63,916 bases of DNA from Phycisphaerales bacterium (GTDB lineage: Bacteria; Planctomycetota; Phycisphaerae; Phycisphaerales; UBA1924): NCBI GenBank assembly GCA_029260475.1, contig JAJDDE010000165.1:1-63916 (forward strand), given 5' to 3'. The notes beneath the pieces are model-generated. The model saw nothing but the letters and a program-made list of their open reading frames with translations. It was not told the origin of the DNA and made no database searches. This document shows, piece after piece, positions 1-63,916 of the stretch (its first letter is position 1; the number at the start of each line of letters is the position of its first letter). The position numbers and the translations under genes are program-made.

Positions 1-822
1 GTTCCGGGCGGTGCTTCCTCGTTCGGCATCACCTCGACGCAGAATCTCCTCATCAACGCGGTGCAGACCGGCATCGAGATCTCGATGCCGACCGCGGCGT
101 TCGAAGTCGGCGGCGTCCCCTGGGATGGCACCGGCCAGATCGGCGTGCTCGCGATGATCGGCAACGGCCCGCACACGTTCATGTCCAGCCAGTTCCTGCC
201 CCCCGTGTGCGCGAACGAGCTCGGTGAGACCCGCGCGATCGACTTCGCGGCCGACCACCAGGACCAGCAGTACGTCTTCATCGAGACCCCCGCGTTCGCG
301 ACCAACGAGGCCTACACCGTGGTCGCCGCTCAGGACTTCCTGACCTTCGACGAGTGTGTCGAGCCCGTTGGTGCCTGCTGCATGGGCGAGTCCTGCGCCG
401 TGATGGCTCAGACCGACTGCGAGGGCATGAGCGGTTCCTTCCTGGGCGACGGCACCGATTGCGGCATGATGCCCATCGACAACCCCTGCCTCACCGTCCG
501 CGCGTGCTGCTTCCCCGACAATTCATGCCTCGACCTCACCTCGGTGCAGTGTGACATGGCGGCCGGCACCATCCTCGCTGAGGGCACCGCGTGTGCGGAC
601 ATGCCGGACCCCTGCGCCCCCGCGAACACCTGCACCGCCGACTTCGACAACGACGGCGATGTTGATCTGGGCGACTTCGGTGTCTTCGGAGCCGCGTTCA
701 ACAGCATGACAGGCGACATGAACTACAACCCCGCCGCGGACTTCGACAACGACGGCGACGTCGATCTGGGCGACTTCGGCGTCTTCGGCGCTCAGTTCGG
801 GCGTACGGACTGCCTCGGCTGA
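1..822 (+). CDS. Secreted dockerin-type protein, 5' end outside the window
   Basis: The reading frame is open from the first base, so the start lies upstream; 273 residues are visible. The first ~115 residues resemble no family I can name. Two Cys-rich modules follow (GACCMGESC...C and RACCFPDNSC...C), then a C-terminal dockerin-like module made of two calcium-loop repeats, each containing DFDNDGDVDLGDFGVFGA. The module is bracketed by a Cys just before the first repeat and by the Cys of the final TDCLG. The same module ends the next three long plus-strand genes, which suggests a common export or anchoring route. Function of the N-terminal part is unknown. Gene reality is certain; the name is descriptive. 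Confidence 0.85.
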   Translation, partial: VPGGASSFGITSTQNLLINAVQTGIEISMPTAAFEVGGVPWDGTGQIGVLAMIGNGPHTFMSSQFLPPVCANELGETRAIDFAADHQDQQYVFIETPAFATNEAYTVVAAQDFLTFDECVEPVGACCMGESCAVMAQTDCEGMSGSFLGDGTDCGMMPIDNPCLTVRACCFPDNSCLDLTSVQCDMAAGTILAEGTACADMPDPCAPANTCTADFDNDGDVDLGDFGVFGAAFNSMTGDMNYNPAADFDNDGDVDLGDFGVFGAQFGRTDCLG

Positions 823-879
823 TACGCGTCCCGGAGGGTGACCCGACGGCGGGTCCCGAAACCGACTGACACCCCCGTA

Positions 880-908
880 GGGGCCGTTCTGACGAGCGGC
901 CCCTTTTT
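880..908 (+). terminator. Rho-independent terminator after the partial dockerin gene
   Basis: A perfect 7-bp stem (GGGGCCG / CGGCCCC) with a 10-nt loop is followed at once by TTTTT, 58 nt after the stop codon. Confidence 0.85.
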
Positions 909-979
909 CGTGCGCCCTGATAATGGTGCATGCGTAACAGCCCGATGTGATCGGACGCAGGAGCGAGTGCCATTGTCGC

Positions 980-1007
980 TTGCGTGCGTCCGCAGGTGCT
1001 GTAGTCT
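980..1007 (+). promoter_or_regulatory. Candidate sigma-70-type promoter for the serine protease gene
   Basis: TTGCGT (980-985) and TAGTCT (1002-1007) are separated by 16 nt and lie about 120 nt before the start codon, after the upstream terminator. The boxes match the consensus only moderately. The rest of the 305-nt gap (823-1127) holds the terminator and an imperfect inverted repeat around 954-990, and nothing else I recognise. Confidence 0.3.
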
Positions 1008-1127
1008 TGAACGTTGCAACAACCCGCGCGATCCGTGCGGGTACCCCGGACACGTTCTGCCCCGTACGGGCGGGCGCCGGGGGATTGAGAACCGGTTCGA
1101 ACCCAGAGGAAAGAGGGGTTTCTGACA

Positions 1128-4100
1128 ATGCGAGAAGTGATCAACACCATGCGGGCCGCTTGTGCCGCGAGCCTGTTGCTGTGCTGTGGCGCGGCGATGG
1201 GCCAAAACGAACTGCCGACGGCGCTGAGTGGAAAACTGGCTCCGATCGAAGCCATCGAGCTGATCGAAGTGGCCGCGGTCAAGATCGAGAACGAGTTGGC
1301 GAAGGACACGCAGACCTTCGGCAAGGAAAAGCCCAAGCGTTTCGCGGTCCCTAACGAGGTGGACCTCACGCCCGAGAACTCGGGCATCTGGGAGGACGCC
1401 GGCAACGGATTCGCTGTCTGGCGTTTGCGTCTCTCTGCGGACCGCGCGATGTCGATCAACCTCGGCTTCACGGACTACGAGCTGCCCGAGAAGGCGACCG
1501 TGTTCGTGTACAACGAGAAGATGAGCGACATGGTGGGCCCGTACACCAGCACGCACAACAACATCCATAACGAACTCTGGACGCCCGTGGTCCCGGGCGA
1601 AGACGTCATCGTCGAGCTCACGGTGCCCATGGAGTTCTTCCATGACGTGCGCCTCCGCATCGGCAGCGTGAACGCGGCGTACCGCCCGCTCGGCCTCCGC
1701 AACGACGACGGCACCGTCAACTCCGGCGTACAGAAGTCCGGCTCTTGCAACCTCGATGTGATCTGCGGCGCCGCCGACGGCTTCCCCGAGGTTGACGCGT
1801 GGCGAGGGCAGATCCCAGCGATCGGCGCGTACACGATCAACGGTTCGGACAACTGCACCGGTTCGCTGGTGAACAACACCGCTCAGGACGGGCGTCCGCT
1901 GTTCATCACCGCGAATCACTGCGGTGCCGACACAAGCCCCGCTGGCATCGTGGTGTACTGGAACTACGAGAGCCCCACCTGCCGCGCACCGGGTTCCGGC
2001 GCTTCGGGCACCCCGATCCCCCGCGTCGGCTTCCCGACGACCTCCGGCTCGACGCTGCTTATGACCACGGGCGGCGGCATCGCCGGCACGCCCGACACGG
2101 CGCTCGTCGAGCTGAACACCGACGCCGCGACGCTCGCGACGATCGGCGTCACCTACAACGGCTGGGACCGTCGCGAACAGACGTACCCGTCTGTGGTGAC
2201 GATTCACCATCCGGGCGTGGACGAGAAGCGGATCAGCTTCGAAAACCAGGCCGTGACGCGCACCGATTATCTCGGTGATCCTGACCTAGGTGCCGGTGGC
2301 TCCCACTGGCGCATCGAGGACTGGGACACCGGCACGACCGAGGGCGGCTCCTCGGGTTCGCCGCTGTTCAGCCCCGAGATGCGCGTCATCGGCGTGCTCT
2401 CGGGCGGCTTCGCCTCGTGCAGCAGCCAGACCGAAGACTGGTACGGGCGTCTGCCCGTCGCGTGGGACGGCGCTTCGGCCGCTGTACGTCTTCGTGACCA
2501 CCTCGACCCGTTGGGCACCGGTGCGCTGACGCTTGACGGCCTCGGCGCCGGCCCCATCCCGTTCCTCACCGCCGGTCCTCTCGGCGACATCGACGGCTGC
2601 GGCCCGGTCGGCGGCCCCTTCGTGGACGGCATGGGCTCCACCACGATCACCAACGCGACCGAAGCGAACGCCAACTACACGGTCTCGGTCTCCACCGAAG
2701 ATGCTTCGGGCATGATCATGCTCTCCGGCGATCTCGGCGGCACGCTCATGGACGGCGACGACGCGACCTTTAGCATCGCGCTCAACTCCGGGGTTGCCAA
2801 CGGCCTCTCCACCGGCACCTACACCTCCACCATCATGATCAGCGACACGACGAACTCGCAGGATTACTTCCGTGACGTCGTGCTGAACGTCGGCAACTGC
2901 AACTCCACGCTGCCCCTGCCGATCCCCGACCAGGGCTCGGTCGAGGCGGAGATCACGATCTTCGATGACCTCTGCATCGAGGACCTCAACACCTCGATCG
3001 GCATCACGCACACCTTCGAGGGTGACCTGATCGTCGAGCTGACCTCCCCCGAAGGCACCACCGTCCGCCTGTACAACCAGTCCGGTGGCAGTGGTGCGGA
3101 TATCAACGAGACCTACGACGACAACGGCACCAACGCCGAGGGCCCCGGCTCGATGGCGGACTTCGAAGGCGAGAACGCGATGGGCATCTGGACGCTCTTC
3201 GTCTCGGACAACGCCGGTCAGGACACGGGTACGCTCGACACGTGGTCGCTCGATATCACCAGTTCCGGCCCCGTCTGCGCCCCGAGCGTTGACGACATCA
3301 GCGCGAGCGCTCGCGACGCTGAGCCCGAGACGATCACGCTCATCGGCAGCGGCGGCATGGGCGCGCTGACCTACAGCATCGGGTCACTCCCGACCAACGG
3401 CAGCCTCATTGATCCCTCCACCGCTTCGGTGATCACCACCGTTCCGCACGCGCTCGCGGGTGCCACGGTGACCTACGTCTCCGCACCGAACTTCGGCGGC
3501 AACGACGGCTTTATCTACAACGCCGACGACGGCAGCATGACCTCCGCCGACGGCAACGTGACCGTCTCCGTGGACGCCAGCGACGCCGTCGCCTCGTTCA
3601 ACATGGACGCCAACCCCGGCTGGTCCACCGACGGCGGCTGGGCCTTCGGCGTGCCCGCGGGCAGCGGCGGCGACCCCACCTCGGGCAACACCGGTTCCAA
3701 CGTCTACGGCTACAACCTGGCCGGTGCGTACGGCAACAACATCGATCCCACCGAGTACCTCACGACGGGCAGCATCGACTACACGGGCGTCACCAACGCC
3801 TCGCTGTGCTTCGAGCGCTGGCTCGGTGTCGAGACGTCGCAGTTCGACCAGGCGACCGTCGAGGTCTCCAACAACGGTTCGACCTGGACGACCCTCTACA
3901 CGAACCCCACGACCACGTTCCAGGACACGGCGTGGAGCACGCAGACCTTCGACATCTCCGCGATCGCGGACAACCAAGCGACGGTCTTCGTCCGTTGGGG
4001 TCTCAACACCGATGGTTCGGTCACCCGCTCGGGCTGGAACGTTGACGACGTCGTCTTCAAGGGCGACGGCGTCTCCTCCGATCCGACGGGCGGCTGCTGC

Positions 4101-4406
4101 CTCTCGGATAGCACGTGTGTCCTCACGACCGACGACGGCTGCACGGCTCTCGGCGGCTCGTACAACGGCGACGGCTCCGACTGCTCCGGTTGCGGCTCGG
4201 TCAACACCTGCGTTGCCGACTTCGACAACGACGGCGACGTGGACCTGGGCGACTTCGGCGTCTTCGGCGCCGCGTTCAACTCCATGGCCGGCGACATGAA
4301 TTACAACGCCGCCGCAGACTTCGACAACGACGGCGATGTCGATCTGGGTGACTTCGGTGTCTTCGGTGCTGAGTTCGGTCGTACCGACTGCCTCACGGCG
4401 AAGTAA
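1128..4406 (+). CDS. Secreted trypsin-fold serine endopeptidase with P domain and dockerin
   Basis: 1092 residues. An N-terminal signal peptide (cleavage likely near AMGQNE) precedes a lysyl-endopeptidase-like trypsin domain (about 205-470). The likely triad is H264 (ITANHCG), D323 (TPDTALVEL) and S409 (GGSSGSPLF). A proprotein-convertase P-like domain follows at about 600-715, then a cadherin/Ig-like segment (715-820), a MAM/jelly-roll-like segment (830-985), a Cys-rich module (GGCCLSDSTC) and the double dockerin-like repeat. It probably acts outside the cytoplasm as a protein-degrading enzyme; substrate specificity is not readable here. The ATG at 1128 has a purine-rich site (AGAGGAAAGAGGGG) 9-20 nt upstream. 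A second ATG at 1149 would give a shorter signal peptide. Strong terminators on both sides make it a monocistronic unit. Confidence 0.85.
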   Translation: MREVINTMRAACAASLLLCCGAAMGQNELPTALSGKLAPIEAIELIEVAAVKIENELAKDTQTFGKEKPKRFAVPNEVDLTPENSGIWEDAGNGFAVWRLRLSADRAMSINLGFTDYELPEKATVFVYNEKMSDMVGPYTSTHNNIHNELWTPVVPGEDVIVELTVPMEFFHDVRLRIGSVNAAYRPLGLRNDDGTVNSGVQKSGSCNLDVICGAADGFPEVDAWRGQIPAIGAYTINGSDNCTGSLVNNTAQDGRPLFITANHCGADTSPAGIVVYWNYESPTCRAPGSGASGTPIPRVGFPTTSGSTLLMTTGGGIAGTPDTALVELNTDAATLATIGVTYNGWDRREQTYPSVVTIHHPGVDEKRISFENQAVTRTDYLGDPDLGAGGSHWRIEDWDTGTTEGGSSGSPLFSPEMRVIGVLSGGFASCSSQTEDWYGRLPVAWDGASAAVRLRDHLDPLGTGALTLDGLGAGPIPFLTAGPLGDIDGCGPVGGPFVDGMGSTTITNATEANANYTVSVSTEDASGMIMLSGDLGGTLMDGDDATFSIALNSGVANGLSTGTYTSTIMISDTTNSQDYFRDVVLNVGNCNSTLPLPIPDQGSVEAEITIFDDLCIEDLNTSIGITHTFEGDLIVELTSPEGTTVRLYNQSGGSGADINETYDDNGTNAEGPGSMADFEGENAMGIWTLFVSDNAGQDTGTLDTWSLDITSSGPVCAPSVDDISASARDAEPETITLIGSGGMGALTYSIGSLPTNGSLIDPSTASVITTVPHALAGATVTYVSAPNFGGNDGFIYNADDGSMTSADGNVTVSVDASDAVASFNMDANPGWSTDGGWAFGVPAGSGGDPTSGNTGSNVYGYNLAGAYGNNIDPTEYLTTGSIDYTGVTNASLCFERWLGVETSQFDQATVEVSNNGSTWTTLYTNPTTTFQDTAWSTQTFDISAIADNQATVFVRWGLNTDGSVTRSGWNVDDVVFKGDGVSSDPTGGCCLSDSTCVLTTDDGCTALGGSYNGDGSDCSGCGSVNTCVADFDNDGDVDLGDFGVFGAAFNSMAGDMNYNAAADFDNDGDVDLGDFGVFGAEFGRTDCLTAK

Positions 4407-4422
4407 ATCTGAACACTTCCAC

Positions 4423-4456
4423 GCAGGAGGCGGCGAAAGCCGCCTCCTGCGCTTTT
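4423..4456 (+). terminator. Rho-independent terminator after the serine protease gene
   Basis: A perfect 12-bp stem (GCAGGAGGCGGC / GCCGCCTCCTGC) with a GAAA tetraloop is followed by GCTTTT, 16 nt after the stop codon. Confidence 0.92.
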
Positions 4457-4510
4457 GGGGTGTGTGTGACGCACGCCCTCGAATCCCCGCCGCCCTCGAT
4501 GAACGGAGAC

Positions 4511-5980
4511 ATGATCGTGCACAAGGCGATGATGGTTGGTGTGTGTGCCCTCGCGATTCTCGCCTCCGCGGCGACGGGCGGTACGGACTACGTGACCCTT
4601 CGCGTGGTGACCTACAACGTGGAGTTCGGTGTCAACAGCCCGGGCAGCTCGACGTACGAAGCGGTCGCAGACATGATCACGATCGTCGATGACGACCCCA
4701 ACGACGGCGCGACGGGGTTGATGCCCGACATCGTGTGCTTCCAGGAACTCACGAACCTCACGAACCTGACCAGCTTCCGCAACGCGCGCCTGCCCGGGTA
4801 TCAGATCTGGGCCCCGCCCTCGGAGGGCGACGGCTTCCTGTTCCAGGGCATCCTCGTGCGACCGGACATCAACATCCTGCAGCAGGGCAGCGTCAACACC
4901 GTCAATCCGCGCGATCCGATCTTTGTGGTCGTGGAGGTCCCGGGGTCCGACGAGGTGCTCAAGGTGTACTCCACGCATCTCAAAGCGGGGAACGACAGCA
5001 GCGACCAGACAACCCGCATGAGCCAGGCCGACGTGCTGGGCGCTGCGATCCAGAACGACATCGCCAGCGGCTTCGTCATGGGCGTACCCCTCGAAAAGCA
5101 GCACGTGATCCTGGGCGGCGACCTCAACTCCAACAACCGCGCCGACGGCACCGTCGAGGAGATCTTCGCTGCCACATCGATGACGGCCTGTTGCGCTCCC
5201 GAGGACGGCAGTGCGGACGAGAACTTCATGATCGCCTTCGGCGTGGACTGCTCGGCGATGAGCCCCTGCTGCGTGCCCGACGTCTCTACCGGGCTCTGCA
5301 ACCTCGCGGGCGGCGAGTTCGTTGAGGTGATCGACGTCATGGGGTGCCTCGACATCCGCTACGAGAGCATCGCCGAATCGCAGATGCCCGGCACCTTCGA
5401 GACCGGCACACGCCAGCCCAGCGAGACGCGGCTGGATTACCTCGTCTGCAACATCGATCTCGCGTTGCGCCACGACACGAACACGGACGGCGTGCTCCAA
5501 TCCGACGAGATCGGCGCGTTCGGCTACGTCTACCGGGCCGAGCAGAACGTGCCCGGTTTCCATGTGCCGGGCCAGTTCGCCAACGGCAACGCCGACGCGG
5601 TCTTCGACGGCGCGGACCACCGGCCGGTCGTCGCGGACTTCCTCTTCGCGGTCCCCGCCCCCACCGGCGGCTGCTGCATCGAGGGCGTCTGCGGGGTGCT
5701 CACCGAGACCGACTGTCTCGCGATGATGGGCGCGTACCTGGGCGACGGCTCGGACTGCTCGGGCGACCCGTGCGACCCCGTCAACACCTGCGCCGCGGAC
5801 TTCGATAACGACGGCGACGTGGACCTGGGTGACTTCGGCGTCTTCGGCGCCGCGTTCAACAGCATGACCGGCGATACGAACTACGACCCGGCAGCAGACT
5901 TCGATGGCGACGGGGATGTGGATCTGGGCGATTTCGGTGTCTTTGGCGGCCAGTTCGGTCGAACCGATTGCCTCGGTTGA
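4511..5980 (+). CDS. Secreted endonuclease/exonuclease/phosphatase-fold protein with dockerin (copy 1)
   Basis: 489 residues from the chosen ATG. The hydrophobic stretch MMVGVCALAILASAATG is a signal peptide. The EEP-fold landmarks occur in order: TYNVEFG (metal-site Asn), PDIVCFQEL (metal-site Glu), STHLKAG (His), GGDLNSNN (Asp/Asn), DYLVCN and DHRPV (terminal Asp-His). The substrate could be nucleic acid or a phosphoester and cannot be decided from sequence. A Cys-rich insert (CCAPEDGSADENFMI...) lies between the Asn and Asp-His motifs. The C-terminus has the GGCC Cys module and the double dockerin-like repeat. The next gene is a tandem paralogue. Start choice is uncertain: ATGs at 4499, 4511, 4529 and 4532 are in frame and none has an ideal ribosome site. 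Confidence 0.85.
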   Translation: MIVHKAMMVGVCALAILASAATGGTDYVTLRVVTYNVEFGVNSPGSSTYEAVADMITIVDDDPNDGATGLMPDIVCFQELTNLTNLTSFRNARLPGYQIWAPPSEGDGFLFQGILVRPDINILQQGSVNTVNPRDPIFVVVEVPGSDEVLKVYSTHLKAGNDSSDQTTRMSQADVLGAAIQNDIASGFVMGVPLEKQHVILGGDLNSNNRADGTVEEIFAATSMTACCAPEDGSADENFMIAFGVDCSAMSPCCVPDVSTGLCNLAGGEFVEVIDVMGCLDIRYESIAESQMPGTFETGTRQPSETRLDYLVCNIDLALRHDTNTDGVLQSDEIGAFGYVYRAEQNVPGFHVPGQFANGNADAVFDGADHRPVVADFLFAVPAPTGGCCIEGVCGVLTETDCLAMMGAYLGDGSDCSGDPCDPVNTCAADFDNDGDVDLGDFGVFGAAFNSMTGDTNYDPAADFDGDGDVDLGDFGVFGGQFGRTDCLG

Positions 5981-6082
5981 TCGAAAAACCGCGCGATCGT
6001 TGCTCCTGCTCGTACTTCGAGAGGGCGAGCGTTTGATTCGTGAATACCGTGCGTGCCCCGCCCGCCCTCTGGAGAACTTCTC

Positions 6083-7564
6083 GTGCGCGTAACTCGATCG
6101 ACCCTGCTGACCGCCGCCCTGCTGAGCCCCCTGCTCCTGACCGCTCCGCTTCTTGCTGGGACGGGCTGGGTGGAACTGCGGATCGTGACGCTGAACGTCA
6201 AGGAAGGGCTCGTCGGCCCCGCCGGCAACGCGTACGAAGCCGTCTCGGACATGGTGACCACCGTGGACGAGAACACGGGCGACGGCGCCGTCGGGCTGCT
6301 GCCGGACATCGCGTGCTTCCAGGAACTCGACCCGGGGAGCCCGGGCACGCTCACGACGTACCGCGACAACTTCCTGCCGGGGTATCAGATCTTCGGGCCG
6401 ACCGGCGCGGGGGATGGGTTCAACTACCAGGCCATCCTCGTCCGTCCGGACATCACCATCATCGAGACGGACACCTTCGGCACCCCGGGGCCGCGCGATG
6501 GGGTGACCGTGGTGCTCGAGATCCCGGGTTCGGACGAGTACCTCAAGGTGTACACCGCGCACTTCAAGGCCTTCGGCGACAGCTCGTCTCGCGCGACGCG
6601 GACCGCGGAGGCGAACACGCACGGGGCCAGCATCGCCGCGGACCTGCTCAACGGATTCGTGCCGGGCGTGCCGCTGGAGAACCAGCACGTGGTCCTCGCG
6701 GGTGACCTGAACTCGAACAACAACAGCGACGGCACACTGAACGGCCTCTTCGCGGGCGAGATCAGCACCAACGCGTGCTGCGCTCCCGAGGACGGCAGCG
6801 CCGACGAGAACTTCATGATCGCCTTCGGCGTGGACTGCGCCACCATGAGCCCCTGCTGCGTGCCCGACGTCTCATCGGGGCTCTGCAACCTCGCGGGGGG
6901 CACGATCGAGTCGTTTCAGGGCTCGACGGGGCTGACGGACATCGTCTATGAGAGCCTCTCGGCGTCGCAGAGCGCCGGCACCTCGCAGACCGGCACGTTC
7001 GGCTCGAGCCGCCTGGACTACATCATGGCCAACGAGGCCCTCGCGCTGCGCTTCGATACCAACGGCAACCAGCAGGTGGACCAGACCGAGGCGAACCAGA
7101 TCGGCTTCGTGTACTACTCCAACCAGAACGTCAGCGGCGTCCACTTCCCGGGCCAGTTCGCCAACGGCAACTCCAACGCCTCCAGCAACGCCTCGGACCA
7201 CGACCCGGTGGTGGCCACGTTCCGGTTCCTCCCCGCCGCGCCGACGGGCGCGTGCTGCCTGGGCGATTCCTGCTCGGTCCTCACGGAATCGAACTGCCTC
7301 GCGTTGACGGGGATGTATCTGGGCGACGATTCGGACTGCTCGGGCGAGCCCTGCGCACCGGCGAATTCCTGCATCGCGGACTTCGATGACGATGGCGACG
7401 TGGACCTGGGCGACTTTGGCGTCTTCGGGGCCGCATTCAACAGCGGTGTCGGCGATCCGAATTTCAGCCCCCAGGCGGACTTCGATGACGACGGCGACGT
7501 CGATTTGGGTGATTTCGGCGTCTTCGGATCCGAATTTGGGCGCTCAGACTGCCTGATACCCTAA
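6083..7564 (+). CDS. Secreted endonuclease/exonuclease/phosphatase-fold protein with dockerin (copy 2)
   Basis: 493 residues from GTG at 6083, chosen because GGAGAA lies 6 nt upstream and a clean signal peptide follows (RSTLLTAALLSPLLLTAPLL). It has the same layout as the preceding gene: TLNVKEG, PDIACFQEL, TAHFKAF, AGDLNSNN, DYIMAN and DHDPV, all the EEP active-site landmarks. The Cys-rich insert, Cys module and double dockerin-like repeat are also present. The two genes are a tandem duplication that has diverged except in the Cys-rich insert and the dockerin. No terminator is evident between them or after the stop. Confidence 0.85.
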   Translation: MRVTRSTLLTAALLSPLLLTAPLLAGTGWVELRIVTLNVKEGLVGPAGNAYEAVSDMVTTVDENTGDGAVGLLPDIACFQELDPGSPGTLTTYRDNFLPGYQIFGPTGAGDGFNYQAILVRPDITIIETDTFGTPGPRDGVTVVLEIPGSDEYLKVYTAHFKAFGDSSSRATRTAEANTHGASIAADLLNGFVPGVPLENQHVVLAGDLNSNNNSDGTLNGLFAGEISTNACCAPEDGSADENFMIAFGVDCATMSPCCVPDVSSGLCNLAGGTIESFQGSTGLTDIVYESLSASQSAGTSQTGTFGSSRLDYIMANEALALRFDTNGNQQVDQTEANQIGFVYYSNQNVSGVHFPGQFANGNSNASSNASDHDPVVATFRFLPAAPTGACCLGDSCSVLTESNCLALTGMYLGDDSDCSGEPCAPANSCIADFDDDGDVDLGDFGVFGAAFNSGVGDPNFSPQADFDDDGDVDLGDFGVFGSEFGRSDCLIP

Positions 7565-58691: not shown

Positions 58692-58887
58692 CGTGTGCCT
58701 CCGTGTTCGGTGTGCCCGGACGGAAGCTACGCCCGGACGGAGGCCGCACAAGCGGGGCGTCGCGCACATCCACCAAACAGCGCACGTCCCCGTGCGCTGT
58801 CCCTGACTTTGTGCACAAACTCGCCCGAAGGCGCGCGTTTGCTACACTCGCGCCGGCACGAGGAGTGTGCCCCGGAGCGACCCACGG

Positions 58888-60795
58888 ATGGCGAAAACGA
58901 CCAAGAAATCGAGCCCTCGCGCGACCGCCGAGAGCATGGCCAAGAGCCAGCGCGAGATCTCCGTCAGCGAGTTTTTCGCGAAGAACCGGCACCTGCTGGG
59001 CTTCGACAACCCTCGCAAGGCCCTGCTGACCACCGTCAAAGAAGCGGTGGACAACGCCCTGGACGCCTGCGAAGAGGCGGGCATGCTCCCGGACATCCTC
59101 GTCGAGATCCGCCACCTCTCGGACGTCTCCGAGGACCGCTTCGTTGCGATCATCCAGGACAACGGGCCCGGCATCGTCCGCTCCCAGATCGAGAACATCT
59201 TCGGCAAGCTGCTCTACGGCTCCAAGTTCCACCGCCTCAAGATGAGCCGCGGGCAGCAGGGCATCGGCATCTCCGCGGCGGGCATGTACGGGCTGATGAC
59301 CACCGGCAAGCCCGTGAAGATCATCACCCGGACGGGCCCGCGCAAAGCGGCCCACGAGGTCGTCCTCAAGATGGACACCTCCAAGAACAAGGCCGACATC
59401 GTCAGCGACAACGAGGTGGGTGACGCGGAGGGCATCTTCGCGAAGGAACTCAACGGCACGGGCACCGGCACGCGCGTCGAGATCGAGCTCAAGGGCAAGT
59501 ACTTCACCGGCGCGCGCAGCGTCGATGAGTACGTGCAGCTCACCGCCGTCGCCAACCCCCACGCGCGCTTCACCTACAAAACGCCCCCCACCTCCGCCAA
59601 GCCCGATGGCGACACCGTCGTCTTCGAGCGCACGGTGGACGAGCTCCCCGACCTTCCCGAGGAGATCAAGCCACACCCGCACGGCATCGAGCTCGGCACG
59701 CTCATCTCCATGCTCGAGCGCACCGAGCAGAACCAGCTGGGCGGATTCCTCGAGAACGAGTTCTGCCGCCTGGGGCCCAAGATCCGCCAGCAGGTCGCTC
59801 AAGCCGCGGGGCTCACGACGCGCACATGGACCAGCGGCGTCACGCACCTCCAGGCCGAAGCGCTCTTCAAGGCGCTCGAATCCACCAAGGTCATGGGCCC
59901 GCCCACGAACTGCCTCTCGCCCATCGGCGTGCGCACGCTGCTCAAGGGATTGCAGCAGGGGATGACGCCCGATTTCATCGCGGCATCGTCGCGCCCGCCC
60001 GGCGTCTATCGCGGCAGGCCCTTCGTCATCGAAGCGGGCATCGCGTATGGAGGTGACATCTCCACCGAGGAGAGCGCGAAGGTCTACCGCTTCGCCAACC
60101 GCGTACCGCTGCAGTACCAGCAGAGCGCGTGCTCGAGTTTCAAGGCGGTGACCGAAACGGGCTGGAAGAATTACGCGCTGCAGCAGCCCAAGGGGGGCGT
60201 GCCCGTCGGCCCCATCGTCTTCATGGTGCACATGGCCTCTGTCTGGGTGCCCTTCACCAGCGAATCCAAAGAGGCGATCGCCGACTACGACGAGATCCGC
60301 AAGGAGATGCGCCTCGCGCTGCAGGACTGCGGGCGCAAGCTCGGCACCTACCTCCGCAAACGCCAGAAGATGAAGCGCGAGGGCGAGCGGCGCGGCGTCT
60401 TCAAGCGCTACATCGGCGAGATCGCCAAGGCGTGCGAGGCGCTCAACGGCACCGACGCCGACGCGCTCTACGAAGCGCTCCTCGAGACCGCCGAAGAGAA
60501 GACCGCGCAGTTCGACGACGTGCTCGACGACGCCGGCAAGGTTGTGGAAAACCATGCGCGTCTGTCGAAGGACGACGGCGTCTTCATCCGCGAAGACAAC
60601 GGCTCGGCACCAACGGGGTCGGACATCGACCTCGAGCGGGCCGCGGACGAGAAGGAAGCGGAGCTCGCCGAGACGGAACCCGAGACAGGCACAAACCTCT
60701 TTGGCGAAGCGGAGCCGGCGTCGAAGACCACGAAGAAGCGCATCGTCAAGAAGGTGAAGAAGAAGGTGCGCAAGACGAGTTCCAGAACTTCATGA
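58888..60795 (+). CDS. top6B: DNA topoisomerase VI subunit B
   Basis: 635 residues from ATG 58888 (GGAG 10 nt upstream). GHKL ATPase motifs: [14 protein letters not shown] (E52, N56), QDNGPGIV (91-96) and [14 protein letters not shown] (122-135). The helix-two-turns-helix and transducer regions follow, with [17 protein letters not shown] as the ATP-switch Lys region. It drives strand passage by ATP-dependent dimerisation and pairs with Top6A. A Lys-rich N-terminus and a C-terminal tail ([20 protein letters not shown]) are extra to archaeal proteins. The stop overlaps the next start (ATGA). Topo VI is chiefly archaeal and plant, and only scattered in bacteria. Confidence 0.95.
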
Positions 60796-61394
60796 ACGTC
60801 CGCACCGAGTACAGAATGAAGCACATGCTTCGTCTCACAACAGATGGAGCACGAATCACAGATCGCCCGCTCCCTTCCGTGTGGTTCAGCGTTGTTTGTT
60901 TGCTGATCACAGGGGTGACCGGATGGCTCGCGGACATCATCTGGATTCCGCTTGCGTATGTGGTCTACTTGACGACTCGCGTAGGTGTCGGGCTGGTTCG
61001 CGGCCGCAAAGTGGTACTCGAAGCCGATGACAGCGCGCTTGTCTGTCCTCCGCTGAACCTGAAGCTCTCGAAACGTGACGTCCTCGGCCTGTTCGATGTC
61101 TCCGCACTGTTCTGGCGCGACAAAGAACGACGTGATTTTAAAGCACTGATGGGCGTTAACTGTCCGGCAGCGGTGGCTCAGACTCCTGAAGGCATCGAGT
61201 TGGTCCCGCTCTACGACAAACTGACCGGTCCGGGATGGCGGTCCCTCACGTCGGAATTCTGCGAGGCAACACGCCTCAGGTTCATCGGGGGCATGTGCAC
61301 TATGCACGAGCGTATATTCGATGACGAAGAAGACATCTGGGTCGCGGCAAGGGTAGAGGCTCTAGCGCAACTCGACGAGACAGGTACCAATTAG
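60792..61394 (+). CDS. Orphan membrane protein between top6B and top6A
   Basis: 200 residues. The ATG overlaps the top6B stop (ATGA). Two adjacent membrane helices (about 28-66, [20 protein letters not shown]) are followed by a soluble domain. [20 protein letters not shown] and the pattern after it look like a small beta domain of bacterial PH type, but this is a guess. GC is about 53 percent in one counted line, against mid-60s around it. The gene separates two subunits that are normally adjacent and ends 2 nt before top6A. No known family. Confidence 0.7.
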
Positions 61395-61396
61395 CT

Positions 61397-62584
61397 ATGG
61401 CCAAGAAGACCACAACCAAAAAGACGACTGCGAAAAAAGTCTCGGGCAAGAAGGTCACCAAGAAACCCTCCGCCCGCGGCAAGTCCGGCGCCGCGTCCGA
61501 CAAAGACACGATGGCGGCGCTCATGCGCCTCGCCGACAGCGTGAGCAAGGCGGGGCTCGCGGGCAGCGACCCGACGATGGACGTGCCCAGCCGCACGCTC
61601 AGCAACACCAGCTACAACGCGAAGAAGCGCATGCTCGAGATGGGCGACGCCTACCAGCAACGCGAGCTCTTCAACCTCAACCAGGCCAAGAAGTTCATGC
61701 AGACGATGCTCGTCGGCAAGGGCGTCAAGAACCTCATCGATCAGGGCAAGACCTCCAGCCTTCGCGGCATGTTCTACGCCGGTCTCCACACCATCCAGGG
61801 CACCAAAGAGAAGACCTTCGGCGACCAGACCGAGTGCGACAGCGTGCTCGAAGACCTCGAGGTCGTCCTCGGCGCGATGCGCGAAGAGCTGCACGTCTTC
61901 GCGAAGAAGCGCGGCACGATGGTCGGCAACATCACCGTCGTGGATGCGGGCGACGACATCGACTGCCGGCGCATGGGCACGGGCGGTTACGCGATCCCCT
62001 CCATCTGCGAGCCCAACGTCATCCAGTTCAAGAAGTGCGAAGCGAAGTTCATCCTCCACGTCGAGAAGGACACCGTCTGGCAGCGCTTCAACGAGGACCG
62101 CTTCTGGGAGAAGCACAACTGCATCTTGACCGAGGGCTCCGGCCAGCCCACCCGCGGCGTGCGCCGCATGCTCCAACGCCTGCACGACGAGCTGGGCCTG
62201 CCCATCTACTGCCTGCTCGATTGCGACCCCTGGGGGCACTACATCTACAGCGTCATCAAGCAGGGGTCCATCTCGCTCGCGTACGAGAGCCAGCGCATGG
62301 CGATTCCTGATGCAAAGTTCCTGGGCATCCGCGCGATGGACTACGAGCGCTACGACCTCTCGGACGACGTGCAGATCGAGCTCAACGACCGCGACATCAC
62401 CCGCGCGAAGCAGATCGCCGAGTACCCGTGGTTCGCCAAGAAGAAGCCCTGGCAGATGGAGATCCAGAAGATGCTGAAGAACGGCTTCAAGATGGAGGTT
62501 GAAGCGCTCATCACCAAGGACATCAGCTACGTGACCGAGGTGTACGTGCCCGAGCGGTTGCAGGCGAAGGATTGGCTGGACTAA
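61397..62584 (+). CDS. top6A: DNA topoisomerase VI subunit A (Spo11-like)
   Basis: 395 residues. After a Lys/Thr-rich N-terminus (about 1-30), the winged-helix domain has the likely catalytic Tyr Y127 in SLRGMFYAGLHT. The Toprim domain has E223 (HVEKDTVWQRF) and D275/D277 (LLDCDPWGHYIYSVIKQGS), the metal-binding residues. Tyr and Toprim together cut DNA with 2-nt 5' overhangs. It starts 2 nt after the orphan gene. The last ~30 codons, ERLQAKDWLD and before, recur as a second copy downstream (63049-63140). Confidence 0.95.
   Translation: MAKKTTTKKTTAKKVSGKKVTKKPSARGKSGAASDKDTMAALMRLADSVSKAGLAGSDPTMDVPSRTLSNTSYNAKKRMLEMGDAYQQRELFNLNQAKKFMQTMLVGKGVKNLIDQGKTSSLRGMFYAGLHTIQGTKEKTFGDQTECDSVLEDLEVVLGAMREELHVFAKKRGTMVGNITVVDAGDDIDCRRMGTGGYAIPSICEPNVIQFKKCEAKFILHVEKDTVWQRFNEDRFWEKHNCILTEGSGQPTRGVRRMLQRLHDELGLPIYCLLDCDPWGHYIYSVIKQGSISLAYESQRMAIPDAKFLGIRAMDYERYDLSDDVQIELNDRDITRAKQIAEYPWFAKKKPWQMEIQKMLKNGFKMEVEALITKDISYVTEVYVPERLQAKDWLD
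62493..62580 (+). repeat. Direct repeat, copy 1: 3' end of top6A
   Basis: This 88-nt segment lies inside top6A and matches 63049-63136 exactly from 62506 to 62580 (75 nt), with three mismatches in the 13 nt before. The offset is 556 nt. Copy 1 ends with TAA, copy 2 with TGA. Confidence 0.97.
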
Positions 62585-62598
62585 GGCAGGAAGTACTT

Positions 62599-63030
62599 GT
62601 GAAACACTGGCGCGGTGATTTTCCCGTGAAACGGAAACAATTCAACGTCTGCATGACACGAGATAGTGTCTGTATGGCGGACGACGTGGATGCACCCAAC
62701 GAAGCACGGTGGGGCTTCGAGGTCGAGTACGCTACTTGCTACGAATTGTGCTTCAAAATCGCAGAGAGAATCGGCGCAGAGCTACCGCAGATCGCTGGCG
62801 GACAAGCGACATGGACGGCGCACTCCGGGTCACCCTTCCCCTTTGCAGTGATCGCGCAGCAGTGGAACTGGAAAGAGCCAAGACTATCGATGTTCTTGGA
62901 CGAACAAGATGAGTCGATGCTGCGATACGAGAACGGGACGCTTCATCTGCACGCGGTCTATCATGCGCAGGTCGATCCAGAAGTTCTGCAGCAGATCGTG
63001 CGAAATTTTTGTAGCGCGAGGACTCCGTGA
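62599..63030 (+). CDS. Orphan gene flanked by the duplicated top6A end
   Basis: 143 residues from GTG 62599, with AGGA about 7 nt upstream and 14 nt after the top6A stop. It has no signal peptide or membrane helix. It looks like a compact alpha/beta protein (RWGFEVEYATCYELCFKIAE ... HLHAVYHAQVDPEVLQQIVR) with several Cys near the start (C15, C22). No family is recognised; the size and the setting would fit an immunity-type or other cargo protein, without proof. GC is 53 percent in one counted line. Its stop overlaps the GTG of the top6A-tail fragment (GTGA). Confidence 0.68.
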   Translation: MKHWRGDFPVKRKQFNVCMTRDSVCMADDVDAPNEARWGFEVEYATCYELCFKIAERIGAELPQIAGGQATWTAHSGSPFPFAVIAQQWNWKEPRLSMFLDEQDESMLRYENGTLHLHAVYHAQVDPEVLQQIVRNFCSARTP

Positions 63031-63140
63031 GTACCGGGCTTTGGCAGTTGGAGGTCGAGGTGCTCATCACCAAGGACATCAGCTACGTGACCGAGGTGTA
63101 CGTGCCCGAGCGGTTGCAGGCGAAGGATTGGCTGGATTGA
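63027..63140 (+). pseudogene. Duplicated C-terminal fragment of top6A
   Basis: A 37-codon open frame from GTG 63027 to TGA 63140, of which the last 31 codons repeat the end of Top6A (LEVEVLITKDISYVTEVY and on to LQAKDWLD). One substitution (Ala to Val) and two silent changes separate the copies, apart from the first codon (Met/Leu). It overlaps the orphan stop by 4 nt and ends 3 nt before the SRPBCC start. That spacing suggests this copy marks the original top6A-SRPBCC junction. Whether the peptide is made is unknown. Confidence 0.8.
63049..63136 (+). repeat. Direct repeat, copy 2: top6A 3' end
   Basis: Second copy of 62493-62580, with 75 nt identical (63062-63136). The sequence left of 63048 is unrelated to top6A. 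Confidence 0.97.
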
Positions 63141-63143
63141 CCG

Positions 63144-63614
63144 ATGCCCGCTGACGTCGTCCTCACGCTGCGCCACGTCACCACGACCCCCCCGGGGTGC
63201 CTCGCGGAAGCGATACTGACGCCTGAACGCTGGTCTGAGTTCACGGGCTGGGGCCCCCTCCCGGGCATCCGCGAAGCGGTGTTCCGAGAGCGGACCGATG
63301 CTGTGGTCGGCACCAAGATCTACGTCACCAACACCGACGGTTCGTCCCACACCGAGACCATCCGCGTGTGGGATCTCCCCCGCGAGATCGTGCTCGATTT
63401 CGGGGACTTCGTGAAGCCACTCTCGGGCATCTCGTCAGGGTTCGAAGAGCGCTTCGACTTCTCGGAGGTCGAGGGCGGGCATCACGAAATCGTCCGCACG
63501 ATGAGCATGCGCCCGAAGCACACCCCCGGGCGGCTCGCGCTGCTCATCATCCGCCCGATGATGGAACGCGCCCTGATGAAGCACATGCGCCTCATCGATC
63601 GCGAGTCCGCGTAA
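63144..63614 (+). CDS. SRPBCC-family protein
   Basis: 156 residues. It starts 3 nt after the duplicated top6A end. The helix-grip fold of the SRPBCC/polyketide cyclase superfamily is suggested by TPERWSEFTGWGPLPGIREA, VGTKIYVTNTDGSSHTETI, LPREIVLDFGDF and a long C-terminal helix (RPMMERALMKHMRLIDRES). Members bind a hydrophobic ligand; the substrate cannot be told. It may be cotranscribed with top6A. Confidence 0.8.
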   Translation: MPADVVLTLRHVTTTPPGCLAEAILTPERWSEFTGWGPLPGIREAVFRERTDAVVGTKIYVTNTDGSSHTETIRVWDLPREIVLDFGDFVKPLSGISSGFEERFDFSEVEGGHHEIVRTMSMRPKHTPGRLALLIIRPMMERALMKHMRLIDRESA

Positions 63615-63623
63615 GCTCTGCGC

Positions 63624-63916
63624 ATGGGACTCTTCGACGGCACACCACTCGAACGCCCCGTCACCTGCGATCGCTGCGGCGCGTCGCTCGACGCCTGCAC
63701 CTGCCCGCGCGACAAGGACGGCAACGTGCGCGCGCCGCAGGACCAATCGCCGCGCGTCCGCCGCGAGAAGCGGCGCGGCAAGTGGGCCACCGTCGTCACC
63801 GAGCTCGACCCCGTCGCCACCGATCTCAAAGCGCTGCTCAAGGCGCTCCGCACAAGCCTCGGTACCGGCGGTGGGATCACCGATGGCGAACTGATCATCC
63901 AGGGCGACCACCGCGA
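63624..63916 (+). CDS. SUI1/eIF1-like translation initiation factor (YciH family), 3' end outside the window
   Basis: The first 97 residues are visible. A short zinc-ribbon-like start (CDRCGASLDACTC) precedes the SUI1 domain: RRGKWATVVTELDPVATDLK, ALLKALRTSLGTGGGITDGE and LIIQGDHR, with the GTGGG loop diagnostic of SUI1. Bacterial members (YciH) monitor start-site choice but are not essential where studied. It starts 9 nt after the SRPBCC gene. The stop lies beyond the window. Confidence 0.93.
   Translation, partial: MGLFDGTPLERPVTCDRCGASLDACTCPRDKDGNVRAPQDQSPRVRREKRRGKWATVVTELDPVATDLKALLKALRTSLGTGGGITDGELIIQGDHR

Follow-up and report, generated by a model that had tools for sequence, protein, structure and literature searches.

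The topoisomerase VI genes of a Phycisphaerales bacterium lie near the end of contig JAJDDE010000165.1, one of the 210 contigs of assembly GCA_029260475.1; the whole stretch analysed here, 63,916 nt in length, is referred to as the window. A lone gene (O1) separates top6B from top6A, a second lone gene (O2) follows top6A, and the 3′ end of top6A is present twice, once on either side of O2. The features of this region, all on the forward strand, are listed below.

58867..60795, forward: top6B, topoisomerase VI subunit B, the upstream partner (Pfam Topo-VIb_trans, E 6.1e-59)
60792..61394, forward: O1, a lone gene between top6B and top6A (ORF and coordinates)
61397..62584, forward: top6A, complete (Pfam TOP6A-Spo11_Toprim, E 4.6e-61), ending ...KDWLD with GAC TAA, as relatives end alike
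62490..62580, forward: copy 1 of the top6A end, functional, with the exact 75-nt core at 62506-62580
62599..63030, forward: O2, the inserted cargo gene, 143 aa, GTG start after AGGAAG, 54.9% G+C, homologues in Proteobacteria
63027..63140, forward: a predicted ORF of 37 codons that holds copy 2, its GTG overlapping the O2 stop
63046..63140, forward: copy 2, the displaced top6A end with its own stop (GAT TGA), exact core at 63062-63136
63144..63614, forward: S, the next gene (no Pfam match)
63624..63914, forward: a SUI1-family translation factor, truncated at the contig end (Pfam SUI1, E 8.2e-11)

The two copies form a direct repeat (62490-62580 and 63046-63136) of 91 nt at 96% identity and an offset of 556 nt, which blastn recovers within the window at E 1.8e-35, a value at which a chance match is not expected. 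The duplication that an earlier note on this DNA had described (88 nt, 556 nt apart, 75 nt identical) is thus confirmed at a slightly greater length. The repeated stretch of copy 1 reaches the middle of the final top6A codon; copy 1 ends GAC TAA and copy 2 GAT TGA, each an Asp codon followed by a stop, and both correspond to the usual end of the top6A protein family and are complete gene ends. Copy 2 stays in frame to its TGA (63138-63140), which is followed by CCG and then by the ATG of S at 63144, so that the 3-nt gap between the second copy and the next gene is as had been reported. Homologues of S are found in two members of the family, on contigs other than those that carry top6A, and S is read here as the former downstream neighbour of top6A.

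All four mismatches between the copies fall within the first 16 of the 91 nt (P about 7e-4 if placed at random), and two of the four are synonymous. Counting the final codon and the stop, the pair shows four synonymous and three non-synonymous changes in its 32 terminal codons. The copies look like two diverged alleles and not one sequence copied, and the clustering of the mismatches would suit such alleles with a recombination or conversion tract between them. Alternatively, the diverged 16 nt at the left edge may represent microhomology through which an illegitimate join was made.

Neither a transposase (Pfam, PADLOC, NCBIfam, PHROGs) nor an inverted repeat bounding the insert was found at the locus, in agreement with the earlier note. 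The window contig yields no tyrosine-recombinase match, the genome holds no third copy of the top6A tail, and there is no similarity between the two copies upstream of about 63046. Copy 1 completes top6A, and the description of a gene-sized insertion that leaves its target intact by supplying a matching 3′ end is supported.

The cargo gene is AT-richer than its surroundings, as had been proposed; its G+C content compares with 62.0% for top6A and 66.5% for the window. Its designation as an orphan is accurate within the order, in that 400 genomes returned no convincing homologue, only two 32-residue matches at E 0.002-0.004, and no family was assigned by Pfam, NCBIfam, PHROGs or PADLOC; the designation does not extend further, as relatives of 34-43% identity exist in Luteimonas, Sphingomonas, a proteobacterial metagenome bin and two Paraburkholderia plasmids, sharing with O2 the motif RDSVCMADDVDAP. 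The homologues (L083-L088) make up an unnamed small protein family with the motifs RDSVCMADDVDAPH and YHAQVDP, among which L086 possesses an N-terminal extension and L088 lies near a haemagglutinin-type gene. A phage origin of O2 was considered and set aside, with no O2 match in phages or IMG/VR, as was the possibility that O2 carries repeats of its own, with no long repeats flanking the homologues L083-L086. The predicted fold is a small alpha/beta domain (a moderate model, pLDDT 74, built on five sequences) for which the PDB offers no significant match, only weak ubiquitin-like/PB1-type ones. Overall, O2 looks like one of many small accessory genes that move singly.

O1, the other lone gene of the operon, starts in an ATGA overlap with the top6B stop, the top6B end is not repeated at O1, no O1 homologue was found in 200 genomes of the order, and no family was found in Pfam, PADLOC, NCBIfam or PHROGs. 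The top6B-top6A junction (60792-61394 here) was compared between the window and L033, L035, L037-L039, L043, L046, L068, L071-L073, L079 and L081; many of the family's genera have lone genes there, mostly unrelated to one another, and others have almost nothing in between (under about 160 nt). Judged from these sequences, the junction is a hot spot for single genes. Because O1 is present without a repeat and relatives carry lone genes at the same junction, both gene ends of the top6 operon appear to take up single genes, and a displaced gene end is left by only some of the insertions there.

The search for other duplicated gene ends that the earlier note had recommended was run on about 1.03 Mb (about 30%) of the same genome at the nucleotide and protein levels, and it was positive, with two further cases beside top6A. 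One is the end of a class I aldolase gene of the DeoC/LacD family (L099; 121 nt, 97.5% identity, spacing 1106), the other the end of the malate dehydrogenase gene mdh (L116; 86 nt, 93% identity, spacing 908). The aldolase copies enclose a PEP-CTERM-type gene, and the gene after copy 2 looks, by eye, to be of the same PEP-CTERM-type kind, as if one neighbourhood were present twice in a row, in a donor and a recipient version. The mdh copies enclose a GNAT acetyltransferase gene whose ATG overlaps the stop of copy 1 (GCATGA), the corresponding sequence of copy 2 being GCGTGA. Since the end of mdh copy 1 is fitted to the start of the cargo, it most simply arrived with it, and the two look like one donor piece. 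A fourth case comes from a second genus of the family (G023, L072), in which the top6B end is duplicated (143 nt, 88.8% identity) around a SUKH-family gene, within a contig of 1.85 Mb. The pattern seen at top6A thus recurs at three other core genes.

Each copy in each of the four cases still ends in an in-frame stop, and every pair has a difference in the last codon or in the stop: GCC TGA and GCG TGA in copies 1 and 2 of the aldolase end, GCA TGA and GCG TGA in mdh, and GGT TAG and GGA TAA in the top6B case of the second genus. The stop codons themselves differ in two of the four. Summed over the cases, 18 of 34 substitutions are synonymous or exchange one stop for another, compared with a random expectation of about 20-25% (binomial P 4e-4 at 25%, 1e-2 at 33%), an excess that comes from few sites and nearly half of which is contributed by one case. 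Alleles that each served as a gene end throughout their divergence would be expected to show such an excess. The different last codons and stops, together with the synonymous excess, support the proposal in the earlier note that the copied end derives from a relative's top6A.

In this genome 3 of 794 tails are duplicated downstream, and 0 of 730 heads (gene starts, with paralogues set aside) are duplicated upstream in the same manner; a further 0.4 Mb, taken from two more genomes of the class, yielded no case. These tail, head and between-genome counts are too small to claim a bias or a difference in rate. Names such as PEP-CTERM-type, RAYT-like, XerC/D-like and ExbD-like, used throughout, come from reading the sequences and not from profile searches. 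Several other repeats met in the survey were set aside upon inspection. They comprise REP-type repeats of about 117 nt that flank RAYT-like transposase genes (L089, 16596-17470, and L169, 1-815, both of this genome), paralogues such as tandem ExbD-like genes and others, PEP-CTERM and dockerin-like C-terminal domains, and a degenerate, nearly full-length copy of tRNA-Ser located 3.3 kb from the intact tRNA-Ser genes (L114, G000:C167, 15-57 and 3280-3322). A dockerin-like region is also present in the window at 607-7554, where diverged copies of a C-terminal repeat region with an inner period of about 99 nt lie at the ends of several long genes. Separately, in G023, a decayed repeat of the 3′ half of a tRNA-Met gene lies 1.3 kb downstream of it (L130; 6335-6407, 6371-6419, 7700-7750), with a single D-Ala ligase-like ATP-grasp gene, and no integrase, in between.

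The top6A tail was sought in 397 genomes of the class and found in 195. Among these 195, no other insertion of the same kind was found at top6A. A second top6A tail is listed for a few genomes of the class, none of them from the same family, and some of these tails were inspected; that of G056 is a plain tandem duplication. It is a fresh duplication of 1464 bp at 99.9% identity on the reverse strand (L032, 4092-5561 and 5556-7025) that begins within the top6A end and takes in a regulator-like gene downstream of it. The nearest top6A among the genomes compared is 76% identical, and neither a donor locus nor an empty site was found among them.

Taken together, a model emerges, to which we assign a probability of roughly 0.7, in which a relative's top6A end and the gene next to it were integrated additively and one-sidedly and the resident end was displaced. 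We infer that the DNA came from a related bacterium, possibly by transformation, as a fragment in which the relative's top6A end was directly followed by O2. Homology in the top6A end would have anchored the fragment, such that the recipient top6A now ends in the donor version and runs into O2. The far end would have joined inside the resident top6A end, either illegitimately, with no long homology, or after closure of the fragment into a small circle that then entered by a single crossover. With the far end joined there, the resident end would have been pushed 556 nt downstream, still in front of its old neighbour S. The single crossover of a small circle that the earlier note put forward fits the locus; linear DNA with one homologous and one illegitimate join fits equally well. 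Besides the paired gene ends of the four cases, the model draws on the homologous anchor at one side of the insert (91 nt, 75 exact), on the lower G+C of the cargo and on the occurrence of its family in Proteobacteria and on plasmids. ComEC and DprA, which are used in DNA uptake, are present in this genome; as the search controls showed, both are also present in bacteria not known for ready competence, E. coli included, and their presence is compatible with transformation and not proof of it. One point against the model is the 75-nt core, in which diverged alleles would be expected to show differences unless a conversion tract extends over it.

Alternatively, the insertion of O2 itself may have duplicated about 90 nt of the resident end, through a staggered break, template switching or some transposition-like process, with later drift in copy 2. 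Long direct repeats of target sequence flanking the insert, their high identity with 75 nt exact, and the same anatomy in the published Helicobacter insertions with long target duplication (PMC1643837, PMC4978471) all agree with such an origin. We nonetheless consider it unlikely, given that copy 2 has kept an in-frame stop in four of four cases, with different stop codons in two, that 18 of the 34 changes are synonymous, that the end of mdh copy 1 is fitted to its cargo and that the differences of the top6A pair are clustered and not random. Tandem duplication of the top6A end with its neighbour, followed by partial loss or replacement of the second unit, is very unlikely: the 1464-bp case of G056 demonstrates that such events happen at the top6A locus, but here no second O2 follows copy 2, the stops of the two copies differ, and two independent changes would be needed.

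For an error of assembly, by a wrong path through the 75-nt repeat or the joining of two strains, we see a slim chance. The assembly is fragmented, the window contig being 1 of 210 and ending 776 nt after copy 2, and had the assembler taken the other route through the repeat, the result would be an empty site and a separate 556-bp circle. However, 75 nt is shorter than ordinary reads, the join at 63045/63046 lacks a long overlap that an assembler could use, and the pattern is present at three other loci, one of them in the 1.85-Mb contig of another genus. We give least credence to an integrase-dependent cassette or satellite whose attachment sites are gene ends and whose recombinase is supplied in trans, in the manner of islands at tRNA genes. 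The insertions do sit at gene ends and restore the gene, and the repeated tRNA-Met 3′ half of G023 surrounds a single gene; yet the four target sequences are unrelated, the inserts contain no recombinase and share no termini that we could see, the window and the aldolase contig have no integrase match, the only adjoining recombinase is a XerC/D-like gene downstream of the mdh case, and the event does not recur at the top6A site within the family. The mobile unit targeting gene ends that the earlier note had offered as an alternative is unsupported on like grounds: no recombinase lies near, the four targets have in common only that they are gene ends, and no other insertion of this kind was found at top6A in the 195 tail-bearing genomes.

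Additive one-sided integration has precedents, and the duplicated-gene-end insertion at top6A is consistent with a type of recombinational gene uptake already known. Homology-facilitated illegitimate recombination is described in three naturally competent species and is rare in E. coli, and both fates of linear DNA considered above, one-sided illegitimate joining and circularization with a single crossover, are documented experimentally (PMC3240628). As is proposed here, homology at one end anchors the incoming DNA while the other end joins without it; unlike there, the process is deduced here from sequence only, the anchors are the ends of housekeeping genes and the donor DNA is apparently that of a relative. 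Such integration has also been put forward as an origin of small variable segments (PMC2884548) and as the mechanism behind T6SS immunity arrays (PMC5361080). In the displacement of T6SS effector-immunity modules of Vibrio cholerae (PMC5361080) and of Rhs C-termini, too, a gene end with its following gene arrives at a conserved anchor, and the old gene end and its follower are shifted downstream. In those systems, however, the gene end is variable and selected as a toxin, whereas here it is conserved and the followers are unrelated lone genes. The Helicobacter pylori insertion with long target duplication (Nobusato et al. 2000, cited by PMC1643837 and PMC4978471) likewise places a gene between two long direct repeats of the target; there the genes are mostly those of restriction-modification, unlike the varied single genes here, whose flanking copies resemble different alleles. 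Integrative islands at the 3′ ends of tRNA and protein genes also restore the target end upon insertion, but the present inserts have no integrase, use many unrelated targets and span only 0.5-1 kb.

A further conjecture, which we regard as quite unlikely, is that the units of gene end, cargo and gene end are integrase-free cassettes, in which recombination between the copies would free a small circle, bearing a single gene together with one gene end, that could re-enter the same core gene in a relative through a single crossover. If so, core gene ends would be shared attachment sites for a family-wide pool of single genes, and the traffic would be harmless, since the target gene is whole in both states.

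Under additive one-sided integration, the duplicated gene end would be a readable trace of single foreign genes settling beside core genes without transposons or integrases, in which incoming DNA is anchored by a conserved gene end and the old end, once displaced, remains as a scar. That four unrelated core genes in two genera bear this scar suggests that the process is ongoing in planctomycete-like bacteria. Such scars are countable in any genome, which makes it possible to measure how large a share of lone genes arrives in this way.
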